From Pagrus major (taxonomy: Eukaryota; Chordata; Actinopteri; Spariformes; Sparidae): 64,000 nt of DNA. The stretch lies in assembly GCF_040436345.1 (NCBI RefSeq), contig NC_133224.1, positions 10,780,741 through 10,844,740 of the forward strand, written 5' to 3'. Positions 413 to 32,504 of this stretch are shown one piece after another. Every line of letters starts with the position of its first letter. Positions within the stretch are counted from its first letter, which is position 1. The position numbers and the translations under genes were made by a program. A model generated the notes under the pieces. The model saw only the letters and a list, made by a program, of their open reading frames with translations, made no database searches and was not told the origin of the DNA.

Positions 413-17613
<17,201 letters not shown>

Positions 17614-18060
17614 GTCTACGGTTACTTTTATTCGTTCCCCCCCCCCTCAAAGCTGGAAGTCAACCACAAGAAACACACTATGAGGCGAGGTAGCGTTAAC
17701 TTTGTTAGGTAGTTAAGCTAGCGGCGGAGCTAGCTAGGTGGCTAACGAGACGGCAGAGGTGAAACGATGATGGCCACTGAGATTTTCAGTCCGAGCCAGA
17801 GGACGTAAAGCGGGTTAACCCTGCTCAAAAAGCTCGCTCTCTCCGACTTTAGGCGGCTAAAAACTCGCATTCCCCCCTGTTACCGAGGGGCGAAAAACGA
17901 CGGACACGCCACATTCACACGACCTATCTACCAACAACTTTTCCCCCAACAAAAACATACAGGGGAGGGGGGTCTAAAAACTTTTCACCACTTTTTGCGA
18001 GCCAACGCGGCGTGTGACGTAAACACGTACCCCCTCTTTTTTTACGTACGTGCTCTCCCA
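17614..18060 (-). promoter_or_regulatory. dvl2: probable dvl2 5' UTR and CpG-rich promoter
   Basis: The sequence just upstream of the dvl2 start codon is unusually rich in CpG for this AT-rich window (for example CGAAAAACGACGGACACGCC and GCCAACGCGGCGTG). It has no clear TATA box, as expected for a housekeeping-type promoter. A CRE-like TGACGTAA lies at 18,015-18,022. The transcription start cannot be placed from sequence alone. Confidence 0.6.
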
Positions 18061-20061: not shown

Positions 20062-20712
20062 TTAAAACTTCCTGTTCAAGAAATGTGGCCCAAACACCAC
20101 CCCGACCACGCAGGTGATCACAAACAGCACCCAGAAGATGACAGCCAGCAGCTGCACACAGACCAGCGTGTTCTTGCTCTGCTGTATGACCTCCTCTTCC
20201 CCAACCAGGCCTGGCGCCATGCCGTACAGCCTGTCCGGGTGCATCTGCTGCACCCGCAGGCTCACGGTGGGCAGGATGATGAAGCGGGTGTCCCTGCTGT
20301 CCCCCTCCAGGGAGAGCACCACTCTCTGGGTGACCGTGGCCAGGCGGGTCGGCTTGATCACGGGCAGGCAGAAGGCCCCTGGGGGCAGCCTGGCCAGGAT
20401 GCGGGAGTTGCAGGGTAAGGAGAGGGCGTCACCGGCTTCCACAGGGGTGAGGTGGCGGCACAGGGGGCAGGGGATGGCTGGAGGGCTGTGAGGGTCGGTG
20501 GGCTCGCAGGGGCAGAGCTGGATCCTCTGGAGGCACTCGGTACAAAAGACATGGAGGCACTCCAGCATCCGGGGGCATTTGTTGTACTGGTTGTACTCCT
20601 GGTAGCAGATGGGACACTCTACATCCATGGGCTCCCCAGGGGTGGTGCAGGGGCCAGGTGCTGCTGCAGCTGGATCTCCCGGATAGGGAGCTGGCACAAC
20701 TTCCCCTGTCAT
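20062..20712 (-). CDS. membrane-anchored C3HC4 RING finger protein (RNF183/RNF223/RNF225-like), 216 aa
   Basis: Probable E3 ubiquitin ligase. From the first ATG the protein has a short Pro/Ala-rich N-terminus, a C3HC4 RING at about residues 33-86 (CPIC, then CLHVFCTEC, then CPLC, all eight zinc ligands present), a middle region of about 90 residues, and one hydrophobic segment near the C-terminus at about 181-207 (VCVQLLAVIFWVLFVITCVV). The tail ends in FLNRKF. One RING plus a C-terminal anchor in about 200 residues is the layout of the RNF183/RNF223/RNF225/RNF152 group, whose members ubiquitinate targets from ER or endolysosomal membranes. I could not settle the exact member. The frame stays open upstream to 20,751 without an ATG, and a stop lies just beyond, so initiation at 20,712, at the later ATG before the RING, or splicing from an upstream exon are all possible. 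Confidence 0.82.
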   Translation of the reverse strand: MTGEVVPAPYPGDPAAAAPGPCTTPGEPMDVECPICYQEYNQYNKCPRMLECLHVFCTECLQRIQLCPCEPTDPHSPPAIPCPLCRHLTPVEAGDALSLPCNSRILARLPPGAFCLPVIKPTRLATVTQRVVLSLEGDSRDTRFIILPTVSLRVQQMHPDRLYGMAPGLVGEEEVIQQSKNTLVCVQLLAVIFWVLFVITCVVGVVFGPHFLNRKF

Positions 20713-23269: not shown

Positions 23270-23660
23270 CTGTCTGCTACTTGTTTTAAAGCAGTCCACA
23301 GCTTAAGATGTCGTGGAAAATGTGATACGAACATAAACTTGATGACGATGATTGATGAAACCTTAGAGCGATATAAACAGACACAGTCGACTATAAATCA
23401 ACTTAGCTTTTCGGTTTTCTGATTGTTTGTTTAAATGATTGACCACCATGAAGCTGATCATTTAAATGATGAAAACATGTAGAACTTGTGAATTTTAATC
23501 CTATTAATACACTAAAGTACAGGATGTGATATTCAGTGTATTCATGATTATGTTTATTTTGATATATCTGTTACACATTTAACAAGCTCTGGCTTGAGTT
23601 CACTTTGAAGCTTTCTGTGGCTGCGAGCTGAATTTTGGATGGTAGTTTGAGTGAGTCAGT
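23270..23660 (+). pseudogene. degraded duplicate of the RNF227-like terminal exon and 3' UTR
   Basis: This block aligns by eye, in order, with 27,345-27,760, the end of the RNF227-like gene. Shared words include the stop-codon region (TGTTTTAA followed by AG..GTC.ACAGCTT.AGAT), TAATGTGATAC/AATGTGATACG, CCTATTAATGCACTAA/CCTATTAATACACTAA, TTTGATATAT.TGTTACA.ATTTAA and CTTTCTGTGGCTGC. Coding sequence before the final codons is not recognisable, and no first exon was found nearby. It is either a relic of a tandem duplicate of the gene or a local duplication of its 3' end. Confidence 0.75.
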
Positions 23661-25622: not shown

Positions 25623-25700
25623 TCTGGACAGCTCACCCCGTCTCACTTCATTCAAACCTTGAGATAAATCAGTGAGGAGCATCACAGATCAAACAGCAGC

Positions 25701-27364
25701 ATGTATTCAGAGCTTGAGTGCGGGATTTGTTACCGGACCTTCAACGCAGGTCGGCGGTGTCCCCGGGAGCTCCAGTGCAAACACAGCTTCTGTGAGAGCT
25801 GCCTGTTGGCCCTGTCACGACCCCTGGGCTCCGGTGAGGACGCGTCCATCGACTGCCCGCTGTGCCGACACACCACGTCCATCTCCGGAGAGGGGAAGAT
25901 CAGAGCCGAGCTGAGGGTGGACGAGTGCGTCCTGGAGCGGCTGTTAGCCGCGGGAGTCCTCGACCAGGAGGACCCGGAGGAGGAAGAGGAGGAGGGTGAC
26001 GTTCAAGACGGCTGTGACGACAGCGAGGAGGGGCAGCTTCCCGAGAGCGCAGCCGAGGAGAGCGACTCTTCCGCGGGCTCCAGAGGAGGGAGGCTCCGGC
26101 GGTCTTGTCGGAAAGTTTGGCAGAAGATAAGCGGGAAGAGCTCACGGCCGAGGGGCGGAGAAAGTAAGTGGCTCATAGTAGTTTTTGTCTTGTCATGTTG
26201 TTGAGGTGTGAAACATTAGGGAGCTCTTAAAATGAACATTTTGAGAATGAAGTTTGGTGGGGTGACCACAACAACAGTGGGCTCATCCTACAGGTGACAG
26301 AAGTCTAGCTTCAGTGTCACTGTGCCACATTTCGTTACATAATCCACTATCTTTTACATTTTCGTCTACAAAAACATAACTTATGTATAACTTGAACTTT
26401 TAGTACCTAGTTTTTAACCCCTGTTGTTGGGGCAAAACATTAGGAAGTTCTTAAAATGAGTATTTTGAGAATGAAGTTTGGTGGGCGTCACTACAATAAC
26501 AGTGGGTTACTCATACAGGTTTTACAGGTGACAGAAGGACACAACCACCTCAGTGGTGTAGTGCAAAGTTTAGGTTCAGCTTCAGTGTCAATTGACACAT
26601 TTAATGAAATATTTTTTTACATTTTCTCACACAAAAACAAGCTTTTACGTATAATTTTGACTTTTTAGTATCTAGTTTTGGACTTGTCTCATTGGGGCAA
26701 AACATTAGGGAGTTGTTGAAATGAACATTTTAAGAATGCAGTTAGATGGGAGTGTATTCATACAGGCTTTTAAGTCGACAACAATCTTAGTGACGTAGCA
26801 CAAAGTTTAGGATTTTAGTTTCCGTGTCAGCTTCTGTGCAAATGTTGCCACATTTGATAAATTAATCCATTACTTTTACATTTTCTTAGACCAAAACAAA
26901 GCCTCTATGTATGATTTTAACTTTTTAGTAGGCTATCTAGTTTTTAACTTAACGTCATGTTGTTGGGGCGAAACATTAGAGCGTTCTTAAAATGAACATT
27001 TTGAGAATGCAGTTTGGTGGGCGTGACCACAGAAGCAGTAGGCTACTGATTCACGCTTTTGTTTTAAGGCTGTCAAGTTGGCAGAAAAGTACACAACTCG
27101 CAAAGTTTAGGATTTTAGTTTCCAATCTAGCATCTATCATCCATCATGTCTTACATTTTCTCATAGAAAAAGTTAACAAATCTGTAATTTTAAATGTTGA
27201 ATACCCAAAATATGTACCCCACACCGAACAGAATGTTTTATTATAAAAAGAAATAGTGGATGTATAAAATGTTCTAATCTAATTTGTCCTGTTTTCTTTT
27301 AGCAGACTGTCTAACCAGTGATGACATGAGGAACCTCGCCATGATGTCCTGCTTCATGTTTTAA
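25701..27364 (+). CDS. rnf227: RNF227-like RING finger protein, two exons, 173-174 aa
   Basis: Probable E3 ubiquitin ligase without a membrane segment. Exon 1 is 25,701-26,163 (donor GTAAGT). Exon 2 ends at the stop 27,362-27,364 and starts at 27,303 or 27,306, because the acceptor is TAGCAG and both choices keep the frame. Residues 7-55 form a C3HC4 RING (CGIC, CKHSFCESC, CPLC). An acidic Glu/Asp-rich stretch (about 86-112) and a basic Arg/Lys/Ser-rich region (about 125-152) follow. The start LECGICYRTFNAGRRCPREL and the short C-terminus SDDMRNLAMMSCFMF resemble human RNF227 as I remember it, including the two-exon layout and length near 190. The family assignment is from memory; a different small RING gene is possible. 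Overlapping AATAAA signals lie 320 bp past the stop. Confidence 0.75.
26178..27170. repeat. diverged tandem repeat in the RNF227-like intron, about 4 units of 225-270 bp
   Basis: A marker phrase, AAACATTAGG followed by AGTTCTTAAAATGAACATTT and TGAGAATG.AGTT.G.TGGG, recurs at about 26,211, 26,435, 26,700 and 26,971. Each unit also carries CAAAGTTTAGG..TTAG-like, TTTTACATTTTCTCA and CTTTTTAGTATCTAGTTTT words in the same order. Units differ by substitutions and indels. The array fills nearly the whole 1.1-kb intron. Confidence 0.88.
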
Positions 27365-27710
27365 GGAGTCTACAGCTTCAGATACCCTGGATAATGTGAT
27401 ACTAGCCTATATTTATTTTCAAGATATCCTGTGCAACATGGACTTGAATCATGAAGACGATGAAACCTGGACACATGGACACATTCAACCATGATTTAAG
27501 TTAACTTTTCAGCTTTCTGCTTGCCTTTTTAAATGATACCACTAAGTTGCTGATACAGTCAAATGAGAAAAAAATGTGAATTGCCAAAGTTGCCCATTTT
27601 AGGCCTATTAATGCACTAATGTATGTGATATTTATTATTTTCATGACTGTATTTATTTGATATATTTGTTACATATTTAAGGAAAAATAAATAAGCTCTG
27701 ATTTGAATTC
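27365..27710 (+). other. rnf227: 3' UTR of the RNF227-like gene
   Basis: AT-rich sequence from the stop codon to just past the poly(A) signal. It is the stretch duplicated at 23,270-23,660, and the duplication continues about 50 bp beyond the expected cleavage site. Confidence 0.65.
27686..27691 (+). terminator. rnf227: poly(A) signal AATAAA of the RNF227-like gene
   Basis: AATAAATAAG gives two overlapping AATAAA-type hexamers some 320 bp after the stop codon. TTTTTCTGTGGCTG downstream is a plausible U/GU-rich element. Confidence 0.65.
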
Positions 27711-27993
27711 ACTTTTTCTGTGGCTGCATGCTGAATTGTGGATGGGCGTTCGAGTGAGTCACTTTTTGCATCATAAAAACAATGGTGTAATGTGTGTATG
27801 TGTGTGTGTGTGTGTGTGCAAAATCACAGTTGCAACATCATGTTCGATCAAGTCTAGGCCACAGTATTCTACAATGAATCAGCTAAAACAGGAAAACCCC
27901 TTTCAGACAACTCCAGGAAGTGGGTCACTTGAGGCCAGGTGAGGAGCATTTCCTCCAATCAGACTCACAACCAGCAGCAGTGTCAGAGCTCAG

Positions 27994-28102: not shown

Positions 28103-31100
28103 ATGTTCGAAAACTCTGCTCCCTACTCAAGGTAAATATCCCCGTTTTACGAGCCTTGTGCACATGCAGTCATAAAATCTGAAAATGTTTTTTGATTGAC
28201 AGCATTATGATTCCCATAAATTACAAAAATACTCCAGTGAGTGTTTTTTTGTCTCCTCTGCAGACTCTTGTTTGTCTTTGCGCTGGTCTGTGCAGCTGTC
28301 ATACCGTTCGTCATGTGTTCAGATGATGCAAGAGGTGAGCGCTATCAGGCCAGTATCTGCCAGACCAATTCTGCCGCGTGTGCAGTTTCAGTGAGCTGAT
28401 GCTCATCTTAATGACTCTCTGAGAGACGTCATGACTCGTGTTGGCTGATAGATAGAGGTGAACGTGTTTGTTAACTTAAAGCTGCAGCTGTTTGATTTAT
28501 AGATATTTTCACAGGCATGTCTTTTAACTTTAAGTTTTATGTTGGCAGTGAAACAAAAGTGTAGAGAGATATGGATTTTACTTTATGAGATTTAAGTAAA
28601 CAAATCTGGAAATGTATTTGTTCTTTCTACATAGCGATTCAGATTATATTTAACTAAAACCAGGGTATAGAGAGGTGAATTCCTGTCCCTTCTGGTGTGC
28701 ACCATGACACCTTATTCATCGCACGATTTAAAATGATTTGTCTCGCCATAGACCATATTCACTCAACATCCATTTTCCTCTGATGTCTCACTTGTGGCAA
28801 GGAACCTCAAAAAGAAGGAAGGGTCATCACGTCACTGAATCTTACTTTGGGGCCAGACTGTGGTGCCTGCTGTATTGAAGTCTACGGGAGATGCATGGAT
28901 AAACACACTAAAACACAACATCTCTACGTTGTATGACATCTTGATGAAGAAATGTCTCCAGACTGATTTTTTTTCTCAAATGATTGACAAGGCTGATAAT
29001 ATTGTGCCCAAAAGTGGCAGGTCCGACCTAATATTGCTGATGAGACTGCAATGACACTGTGAACAGGAACCTTTCCCGAATTAAATTGAGGGACAAACAA
29101 CATGCCAATTTTATGATTTTTTTTTTTTTTAAATCAGTCGTTCACCAAAGCAAGCAAGATTCAGTGAAATAATGACCCTTCTTTTTTAGGCTCCTTGGCT
29201 CAGGGTGGGACGTTTGAATGCTGGAATAATGTTATGTTGCTGTGTACCTGGTTGCAAATTCCATAAAAGTAAGAAATCTGACAATTTGTTATCATTTCAC
29301 CACTTCCTGATTGAAAAGAAGATGGAAAAGGGAAAATCTGAAGGGACAAGGGACAGCCATATTTAAAGACAAAATATCATATTCAATAACCCACTTACTT
29401 TTGCATTTAATCATTCCCTAGCTAACATTACCATTTGATTACATCCTGATTGTAGATATTTTGGAATTAACATCTATCTTATTGTATTGTGTAACTCTAC
29501 TTCAAACCAAGACATTTTTCTTTTAGTATTTCTACAGCATCACAGTTATTATTTACCTGTATAACAACATTACAAAGAATAAATAGTTGTGTCTTATGTT
29601 GACATTCTTTTCCACTTTTAGGCAGTCCCATATCAACCCAAGTGGACAATGGAGTGCAACACAATGTCCCGAGACATGTGTACACCCCATACAGTCATCA
29701 TCTGTTTACTGCTCTGCCATTACCCGAAACTGGACTCCACGCTGGAACTCGCAGTGAAACTGATACAAGCAGGAATTATAAAGAGGCCTTGTCAATCATT
29801 CACCATCAATCAAACCCTCCACGGTTTAGTTATCAAAACGTCCCAGATAACAGACACTCCCGAGAGGGAACAACTGGAGCGCAGAGTGAAGTGAGGTCAG
29901 CAAACAGCATTTTCACCGGACAAAGCTTTGAGAGACGGCAATCCGAAGTAAATCACCACCCATTCTCTCGAGGAGTAGGGCAAAGTGGAAATTCCTATTA
30001 TTCACCCCCAGTGATCGTTAGGAAATCATCTCACAATGCCAGTCCCTTTCATCAGAGCTCTCGTCCATCTCAAGTCTGGGACCTCAAAGATGCTCAAAAA
30101 TCCTCCAACAAAGAAAGACTTCCTGGAAATAACCCTCCAAAGGTGGCTGAAGATGAAACAGTCTGGCAACCCTCTCGCTCTTCTCTTTTTTCATCCCAGG
30201 CTGGTAGATATTGGAGTACTTCACCGCCAACTTCAAGATGGCATTACAGTGGCTATGAAGAGACAAATGAGCTTGCTGCGGTCGGGCTGCTGAGCACATC
30301 TCGCGGGGTTCAATCAAGCAAATTTTTCGGCTTAGCGAGTCAAACTGCCCCTCGTGCGCCATCAATCAGCAAAAGCTTCGACACCTCTGTTATTAAAGGC
30401 AATCCAAGCCCAGAAAAACTGGCACCATCCATCACAGATTTCTCCCAGGGGTTGCACTCTGCGAGCAGCAGCAAGACACCGAGATACAGAAAGGTCCAGT
30501 CGTATCTGTTCAAGGACTCCCAGGCCTCTTCTGATGGACGTGAGAAAGTTAATACAGCCACTGGTGATGGACACAGGGCTTTTCCCACAACACCTCATAA
30601 GCAAACTCCCACTGATGCTCAAGTTTACGGCAGGTTTTCTTCCAATTTTAAACAATCAAAGACAGGAGAGCCAACCAAGGAAGTGCAACATCTCTCTAAC
30701 TATGCCAATCCACTGTATCATAACGCATATATGGCCCAGTATGGGGCTCACACAGATAGTTTTACCAAATATCAACACACTACCCCAGAAACTCTTGCTC
30801 AAATGTCAGTACATCCTGCTCCAGGGACAGACAACCCCATGCAAAGTTTCCTCCCCAGACCTCATGCAGATTTCCAGGGTAACTATGCCCCTGGCAGTGG
30901 GAAATCTGTTGTAAGTAGCCTGGTTAATACGACCACAAGAGGATCTATGACTGCATACAAACCTGGGCAAACCACTAAAAGCATCTATGGCTTCAGAGGA
31001 TTCAAAAATGCTCCGTTGAGAGCTGTGAAGGAGCCATCTATCCTCTCCTCCGATGGCTCTAATGAAAGGACCAACTCTCAACGATACAGCTTCGACAAAG

Positions 31101-32470
31101 GGAAGTTTAAAATCGCAAACATACACCCATCTTTGTCAGCAAAGTATAGTTTTGGCCAGAGAAAGGTGTCTACTACACCAGCAAAACTTGAGAGGACACC
31201 CACAGATTATTCCTCACCGCCTTCTGGCACTTTAGATCTTGTCCAAACCACTCCAAGGCCGTTCCCATCGAGATTTAAGGAAGCCAGGCCTCTGATGCCT
31301 GAAAGTGATGCGGGTCTGGACAGCAATCCAGATCGCAGGCAGTACAGAATCCACAAAAGGATTTATGGTCTCAAAGGATTTGGCACTCGACCACTCGAGG
31401 GAGCCAAATCTTCAGTTAGTGAAGCAGAGAAGTCTACCAGAGTCCAGCAGGGTTTTGAAGGATTTAGACATAGAGGCTCACAGATCTGGCAACACAGGTG
31501 GTACAATAAAACAAAACCAGGTAGCAGCCGTGTATCCACAATGAGTCCAACTGAACAAAACAGTGAAGACCTGCAATCACCGTTGAAGGCGGTGGGAAGC
31601 GCTGAAGCAGTCACCAGATTTACACCTGACAAATACAAAAATACCCACAAAATCTATACCCATCTGGGATTTCACCCTGTCCAAAAGAGAATTGGAAATG
31701 CTACAACTCAAACACACTGGAAGTACAGAGAACAAAATCCAGCTACAGCATCTGCAAGTCACAGAATCTCCTCAGCTTATCCCAGATCAGCAGGAGGTAT
31801 ACAATCTGAGCCAAGACCACCCAACAAAACCAAACCTTTTGCAATGAAGCCGAGCCCACTCAACAGTTCCACCAGCAGCACAGTGAGAGGCAAACGTGTA
31901 AGAGGAAAATACACTTCTGTCAAAGAGCTCAATGGATCTACCTCCCTAACTAATGGTGCTGGAAATGTACCCATAGTCAGGCTGCTCAAGCGGCCTGCCA
32001 GAGTCAAAGCTGTCATGTACACTGATATTCTGGGAAGTGCTTCGTTCAGTGGTGTCAGAGGTATAACCCAGACACCAATCACACCGGCTGATAAGGATAA
32101 TTTTCCAAACACTTCAACAAGGATGAAGGAAAAAGAAGCTCCGGGTGATTGGACCTTGAACTCTGAGGACGCTGTGCTTAGCAGAGAAAACAAGAGCAGA
32201 GGTCCTGAAGATGAGGTCGATTTTAGTAGTGTTGAGATGAACAAGTCGGGTGTTAGAAATGAAGGAGATGACAGTGATATGAAAACATCTGACTTATTCC
32301 TGGATAATGAAGGCAGTGGAAGTGGGGGATTTGATATGTCTGATGTTTTTTCAGCTGATCCCACAAAGACTCAGGGAGTTGGTGAAGATTTGTTAGAATT
32401 AGATTATCTACGTATATCAACAGGGAACATCTCCTTCAAGTCAACAAAACTATCCCCAACGGAGAAATGA
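28103..32470 (+). CDS. unrecognised large secreted protein with SGSG site, three exons, 982 aa
   Basis: Exons are 28,103-28,131, 28,264-28,334 and 29,622-32,470. Donors and acceptors are GT-AG and the phases join exactly. Exon 2 encodes a hydrophobic core LLFVFALVCAAVIPFVMC, so residues 1-28 look like a signal peptide. The remaining 950 residues contain no cysteine and are rich in Ser, Thr, Pro, Gly, Asn, Lys and Arg. Weak repeats centre on YGxxGF: VYGRFSSNF (about 368), IYGFRGF (about 488), IYGLKGF (about 614) and IYTHLGF (about 711). A more hydrophobic patch reads PIVRLLKRPARVKAVMYTDI. The last 110 residues are acidic and contain EGSGSGGFD, a classic glycosaminoglycan-attachment context at about 932-934. 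Several NxS/T sites are present. No known domain is visible. My inference is a disordered extracellular-matrix protein or proteoglycan; the function is unknown. Confidence 0.85.
28335..29621 (+). other. intron 2 of the secreted orphan gene
   Basis: A 1.3-kb AT-rich intron between the signal-peptide exon and the long last exon. No tandem array or clear mobile element was recognised, and short open frames inside show no domain. The acceptor is TCCACTTTTAG followed by GCAG; only the first AG keeps the frame. Confidence 0.75.
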
Positions 32471-32498
32471 GAGAAACCTGTTGAAGTATTATGTGGCA

Positions 32499-32504
32499 AT
32501 AAAA
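32499..32504 (+). terminator. poly(A) signal of the secreted orphan gene
   Basis: AATAAA lies 28 bp after the stop codon, giving an unusually short 3' UTR. A transposon-like element begins about 60 bp further on. Confidence 0.7.

Follow-up and report, generated by a model that had tools for sequence, protein, structure and literature searches.

A 64-kb stretch of Pagrus major DNA (hereafter the window, meaning the whole stretch analysed) carries three forward-strand exons that a first-pass annotation had judged very likely to be a real gene encoding a cysteine-free secreted protein of no recognisable family, which raises the question of whether this reading frame is a gene and, if so, what kind of protein it specifies. 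Rebuilt from the sequence, the exons (Table 1) join in frame to give 982 codons, with introns of 132 and 1287 bp that are both GT-AG and lie in phases 2 then 1, reproducing the exact phase closure of the original model. In-frame stops precede the ATG by 75 and 96 bases, and the stop codon ends at 32470, followed by a poly(A) signal starting at 32498, the 28-bp spacing originally described.

The uninterrupted 2.8-kb last exon has an open frame of 955 codons, compared with chance maxima of 246 codons in 60 simulated 64-kb windows whose model was trained on the window itself and 346 codons in another 60 trained on exon 3. Its three-base periodicity (0.0205 bits) exceeds that of all 217 equal-length background segments (top 0.0117), and is uneven along the exon, with two of nine 300-bp blocks at ≤0.008. 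The first in-frame ATG inside exon 3 occurs only at residue 404, so that translation must begin in an exon further upstream; exons 1 and 2 provide both a start codon and a hydrophobic signal segment matching the exon 3 frame. A chance open frame or a pseudogene is scarcely credible: the failure to find a homologue would fit such a reading, but the length of the frame relative to the simulations, the periodicity, the lack of an early ATG in exon 3 together with a fitting signal exon, and the avoidance of cysteine (below) all argue against it. The 982-codon gene is very probably genuine, and the original observation holds and is somewhat stronger than first stated.

Table 1. Features of the 982-codon gene and its surroundings (window positions unless prefixed by a label).
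Feature	Position	Strand	Remarks
Exon 1, coding part	28103..28131	+	MFENSAPYSR, ending in a split codon; phase 2 with GTAAAT donor
Exon 2	28264..28334	+	Hydrophobic core and end of putative signal segment, LLFVFALVCAAVIPFVMCSDDAR; GTGAGC donor, phase 1
Exon 3	29622..32470	+	Remainder of the protein, beginning within the split codon for residue 34, plus stop; 0 Cys codons
IYGFRGF, IYxxxGF copy 1 (residue 488 on)	30983..31003	+	Motif scan
IYGLKGF, IYxxxGF copy 2 (residue 614 on)	31361..31381	+	Motif scan
IYTHLGF, IYxxxGF copy 3 (residue 711 on)	31652..31672	+	Motif scan
RGKR, furin-type, residues 789-792	31886..31897	+	Sole RX(K/R)R site of the protein
Acidic tail, residues 861-960	32102..32401	+	24 D/E, 10 K/R
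DNEGSGSGGFD, candidate glycosaminoglycan attachment site, Ser932/Ser934	32303..32335	+	Sequence scan; site rules from PMC10424144
AATAAA poly(A) signal	32498..32503	+	Read in sequence
dvl2	413..17646	-	C-terminal reading frame from 413 to DIX exon 17452-17646
RING ORF, 216 aa, intronless in its frame	20065-20712	-	C-terminal hydrophobic helix
RING-finger ORF, 5' neighbour	25668..26204	+	Pfam RING matches
irs, ~38 kb downstream of the 982-codon gene	L014:6880-9999 to L016:2198-2722	-	PH domain
irs duplicate	C13:5012190-5012525		PH domain 80% identical

Hydropathy of the N-terminus (Kyte-Doolittle mean over 19 residues, KD19) peaks at 2.68 from residue 11, over the exon 2 segment, and reaches at best 0.84 beyond residue 60, which on sequence grounds agrees with the signal-peptide exon first proposed. 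A weight matrix for signal cleavage, in which acceptable sites score 3.9 to 6.3, places potential cleavage after residues 24 (6.26), 28 (5.30), 34 (4.97) and 21 (4.86). The 982-residue protein probably enters the secretory pathway by way of this hydrophobic N-terminus. Since the hydrophobic run is long (~17 residues, with Arg preceding and Asp-Asp following), it could instead act as the uncleaved anchor of a type II membrane protein with an extracellular body, a reading that the several acceptable cleavage sites from the matrix make unlikely.

Cysteine is confined to residues 19 and 28, both within the signal region. None of the 948 codons of exon 3 encodes Cys, where position-specific base frequencies predict 18.2 (P ~1e-8), and the other two frames of the exon contain 21 and 41. 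Cleavage after residue 21 or 24 would nevertheless retain Cys28, so the claim of a cysteine-free mature chain holds for exon 3 and is conditional for the chain as a whole, in which one cysteine may survive unless the cut falls after Cys28.

The claim that the protein has no recognisable domain was borne out for exon 3. Pfam gave no family for exon 3 from residue 38 on, nor for five exon 3 pieces spanning all but 31691-31879, and PDB gave no chain for exon 3 or for the C-terminal 196 residues at permissive thresholds; the Pfam and PDB queries begin after residue 37. Because these are the sole searched libraries that cover vertebrate proteins, failing to match them is no proof of a new gene. The protein is presumably present in public annotation as an uncharacterised entry. 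Within its own 786-Mb genome, where match counts are lower bounds, exon 3 matched itself and two further stretches at chance level (E 3.9 with two stops, and E 8.1), the C-terminal piece matched itself and one stretch (E 2.9), and a 961-base DNA query matched only itself; the gene is apparently single-copy as far as found in this assembly. The remainder of the window holds no relative better than E 1.9, and Rfam gave no match on the window. In viral contigs 11 stretches fitted one of six peptide patterns and in prokaryote genomes seven stretches were picked up, none of which encodes a relative, and a literature search with six short peptides of the protein returned no match. Literature listings on RNF227, its neighbour, and on fish matrix proteins, glycoproteomics, orphan genes, dvl2 synteny and SCPP introns do not name the gene either, and two zebrafish clone-type names taken as leads showed no tie to it. 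Thus, of the original interpretation, a real gene of secreted type with no recognised domain and no paralogue found still stands, while its cysteine claim hangs on the cleavage site.

The gene lies in the order acadvl-like, dvl2, RING ORF, RNF227-like RING ORF, 982-codon gene, irs. The best PDB match of the dvl2 DIX exon is DVL-2 (E 1.3e-21), with DVL-1 near behind (1.3e-19), the acadvl-like exon just beyond the window has an acyl-CoA dehydrogenase match slightly under the Pfam cut-off, and the irs PH domain matches IRS-1 in PDB at E 5.3e-47. The RING ORF immediately 5' of the gene, called RNF227-like after the first-pass annotation, matched itself and, partially, 16 other stretches of the genome at 32-48% identity. 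Its gene may splice from GTAAGT at 26164 to an acceptor near 27303 rather than end at 26204, and the putative last exon (27303-27360, forward strand) reads, by eye, DCLTSDDMRNLAMMSCFMF. The reverse-strand RING ORF at 20065-20712 is 42% identical to the RNF227-like ORF over 60 residues, and in a model made without an alignment 22 residues of its C-terminal helix have pLDDT ≥90, making a tail-anchored E3 ligase possible. Two same-strand stretches at 23581-23658 and 27690-27761, each right after an AT-rich tract, are 79% identical over 78 bases and could stem from local duplication or belong to an interspersed repeat. Across ~30 kb at positions 33000-64000, CA/GT and AG repeats abound; nine reading frames tested there gave no Pfam match above cut-off, two of them giving weak matches below it (E 0.057 and 0.065).

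Around the irs duplicate, a scan of 140 kb (14 x 10 kb) recovered irs itself; two dvl2 pieces, both RING ORFs and a 91-residue piece of acadvl had no match at E ≤0.05, and the 982-codon gene gave only three chance matches there (E 5.4 to 7.8). No human gene of this kind is known near DVL2 or RNF227, and Pfam and PDB gave no match at permissive thresholds. Both points weigh against the protein being a rapidly evolving orthologue in fish, or a relic, of a named tetrapod protein that does the same job and is masked by divergence, as had been suggested; disordered secreted proteins do diverge quickly, and the neighbourhood itself is shared, as PMC9650189 describes ACADVL-DVL2 as conserved between fish and mammals. 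The figure legend for mouse and zebrafish in PMC5482937 places Acap1, Dvl2 and Acadvl among the Irs neighbours, and the block may therefore be an old one in fish. We regard such an orthologue as possible, with odds on the low side.

The protein is rich in serine (13.5%), threonine (8.0%; S+T 21.5%) and proline (7.7%), and its charge is laid out unevenly. Residues 35-982 have an overall pI of 9.8, which divides into a basic body (residues 35-860, pI 10.1) and an acidic C-terminal part (residues 861-982, pI 4.3). A charge-hydropathy comparison groups it with disordered proteins, its H of 0.398 lying below the Uversky boundary of 0.427, and it is probably mostly unstructured. A mean TOP-IDP value of 0.17, to which no cut-off was applied, was hence not used as evidence of disorder. 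An AlphaFold2 model made without an alignment has a mean pLDDT of 34 and no residue above 70, values that we did not take as disorder because in the control the neighbour's RING domain is equally low (31-39), its C-terminal helix exceeding 90. N-glycosylation sequons number 11, close to the 9.4 predicted from composition.

A secreted-type, low-complexity, cysteine-poor protein with short signal-coding 5' exons resembles the SCPP skeletal family. The acidic branch of that family is enriched in SxE phosphorylation sites, whereas SxE here occurs 7 times against 6.2 expected. SCPP genes lie in a sparcl1-linked cluster, and the locus here holds acadvl-like, dvl2 and irs. Actinodins, the fin-fibre proteins of fish, would share the character of a structural secreted protein, but have Cys-bearing repeats, which the 982-residue protein lacks. 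Nearly all SCPP introns are in phase 0 (PMC6732285, PMC7807025), and phases 2 and 1 contradict membership, which we consider extremely improbable; none of the observations speaks positively for the skeletal role first suggested. A parallel in gene structure is ODAPH, which according to PMC7807025 has three exons in several non-mammals and is set outside the SCPPs by its intron phases, but both of its introns are in phase 1 and its exons 2 and 3 contain cysteine, in contrast to phases 2 and 1 and a cysteine-free exon 3 here.

The acidic tail contains DNEGSGSGGFD, in which Ser932 is preceded by D (-4) and E (-2) and Ser934 by E (-4), that is, the Ser-Gly with acidic residues nearby that is a feature of proteoglycans. 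For this feature, selected like RGKR and IYxxxGF after inspecting the sequence, 5000 shuffles of the whole protein produced GSGSG with two or more acidic residues among the preceding four once, and a looser form, GSG with two or more acidic residues at -5 to -1, 157 times; when the acidic tail alone was shuffled, the looser form appeared in 110 of 5000 and any GSGSG in 9 of 5000. PMC10424144 reports that GSG is ranked above SG in site assignment, that acidic residues lie mainly N-terminal of the site (positions -4/-3 where sulphation is high), and that the chondroitin sulphate sites from human urine all fall within disordered or low-complexity regions. DNEGSGSGGFD fits this reported chondroitin sulphate pattern and is likely a candidate attachment site; unnoted in the first-pass annotation, it strengthens the general idea of a matrix protein proposed there. 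The part-time chondroitin sulphate proteoglycans identified through glycoproteomics in PMC8418075 and PMC10424144 are similar in combining such a site with a probably disordered stretch and probable secretion, and the 982-residue protein, compared through Pfam and PDB only and with its chain a candidate, differs from them in its strongly basic body.

Two further features lie upstream of the tail. The four-position motif IYxxxGF, likewise chosen on inspection, scores 18.28, reached in 0 of 200 shuffles (best shuffle 18.10), while the best ungapped self-repeat score of 48 was matched or exceeded in 3 of 30. Granins are acidic, and the strongly basic character of this protein, together with a single RX(K/R)R site over its 982 residues, makes a granin- or prohormone-like precursor of secreted peptides very unlikely. 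Such a precursor would account for the RGKR site and the long low-complexity body, and prohormones carrying chondroitin sulphate exist (PMC8418075).

Collectively, these features suggest, at a probability of about one half, that the gene encodes a matrix scaffold or part-time proteoglycan, secreted and for the most part disordered, with a cationic body and an acidic tail bearing a glycosaminoglycan site. The product would enter the secretory pathway through its hydrophobic N-terminus, and the released chain would be long, mostly unstructured and strongly basic, with an acidic C-terminal tail. At the xylosyltransferase-type site DNE-GSGSG in that tail a chondroitin or heparan sulphate chain would probably be attached, and a furin-type cut at RGKR, ~70 residues ahead of the acidic tail, could free a 190-residue C-terminal fragment carrying the chain. 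Through its basic body and the IYxxxGF repeats, the protein would attach to acidic polymers of the matrix or to further copies of itself, and so serve as a matrix scaffold free of disulphides or as a part-time proteoglycan. A bolder version, in which the protein is a lineage-restricted fish extracellular protein outside known families whose cationic disordered chain, together with an acidic proteoglycan tail that furin can release, builds a matrix without disulphides, is one that we put forward tentatively and consider rather doubtful.

The division into basic body and acidic tail, DNEGSGSGGFD, RGKR and the three IYxxxGF copies are new relative to the first-pass annotation, and the gene's locus is well defined, between the RNF227-like gene and irs. 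The 982-residue protein could extend the list of proteoglycan core proteins, and proteins that domain searches miss probably exist in fish matrices.
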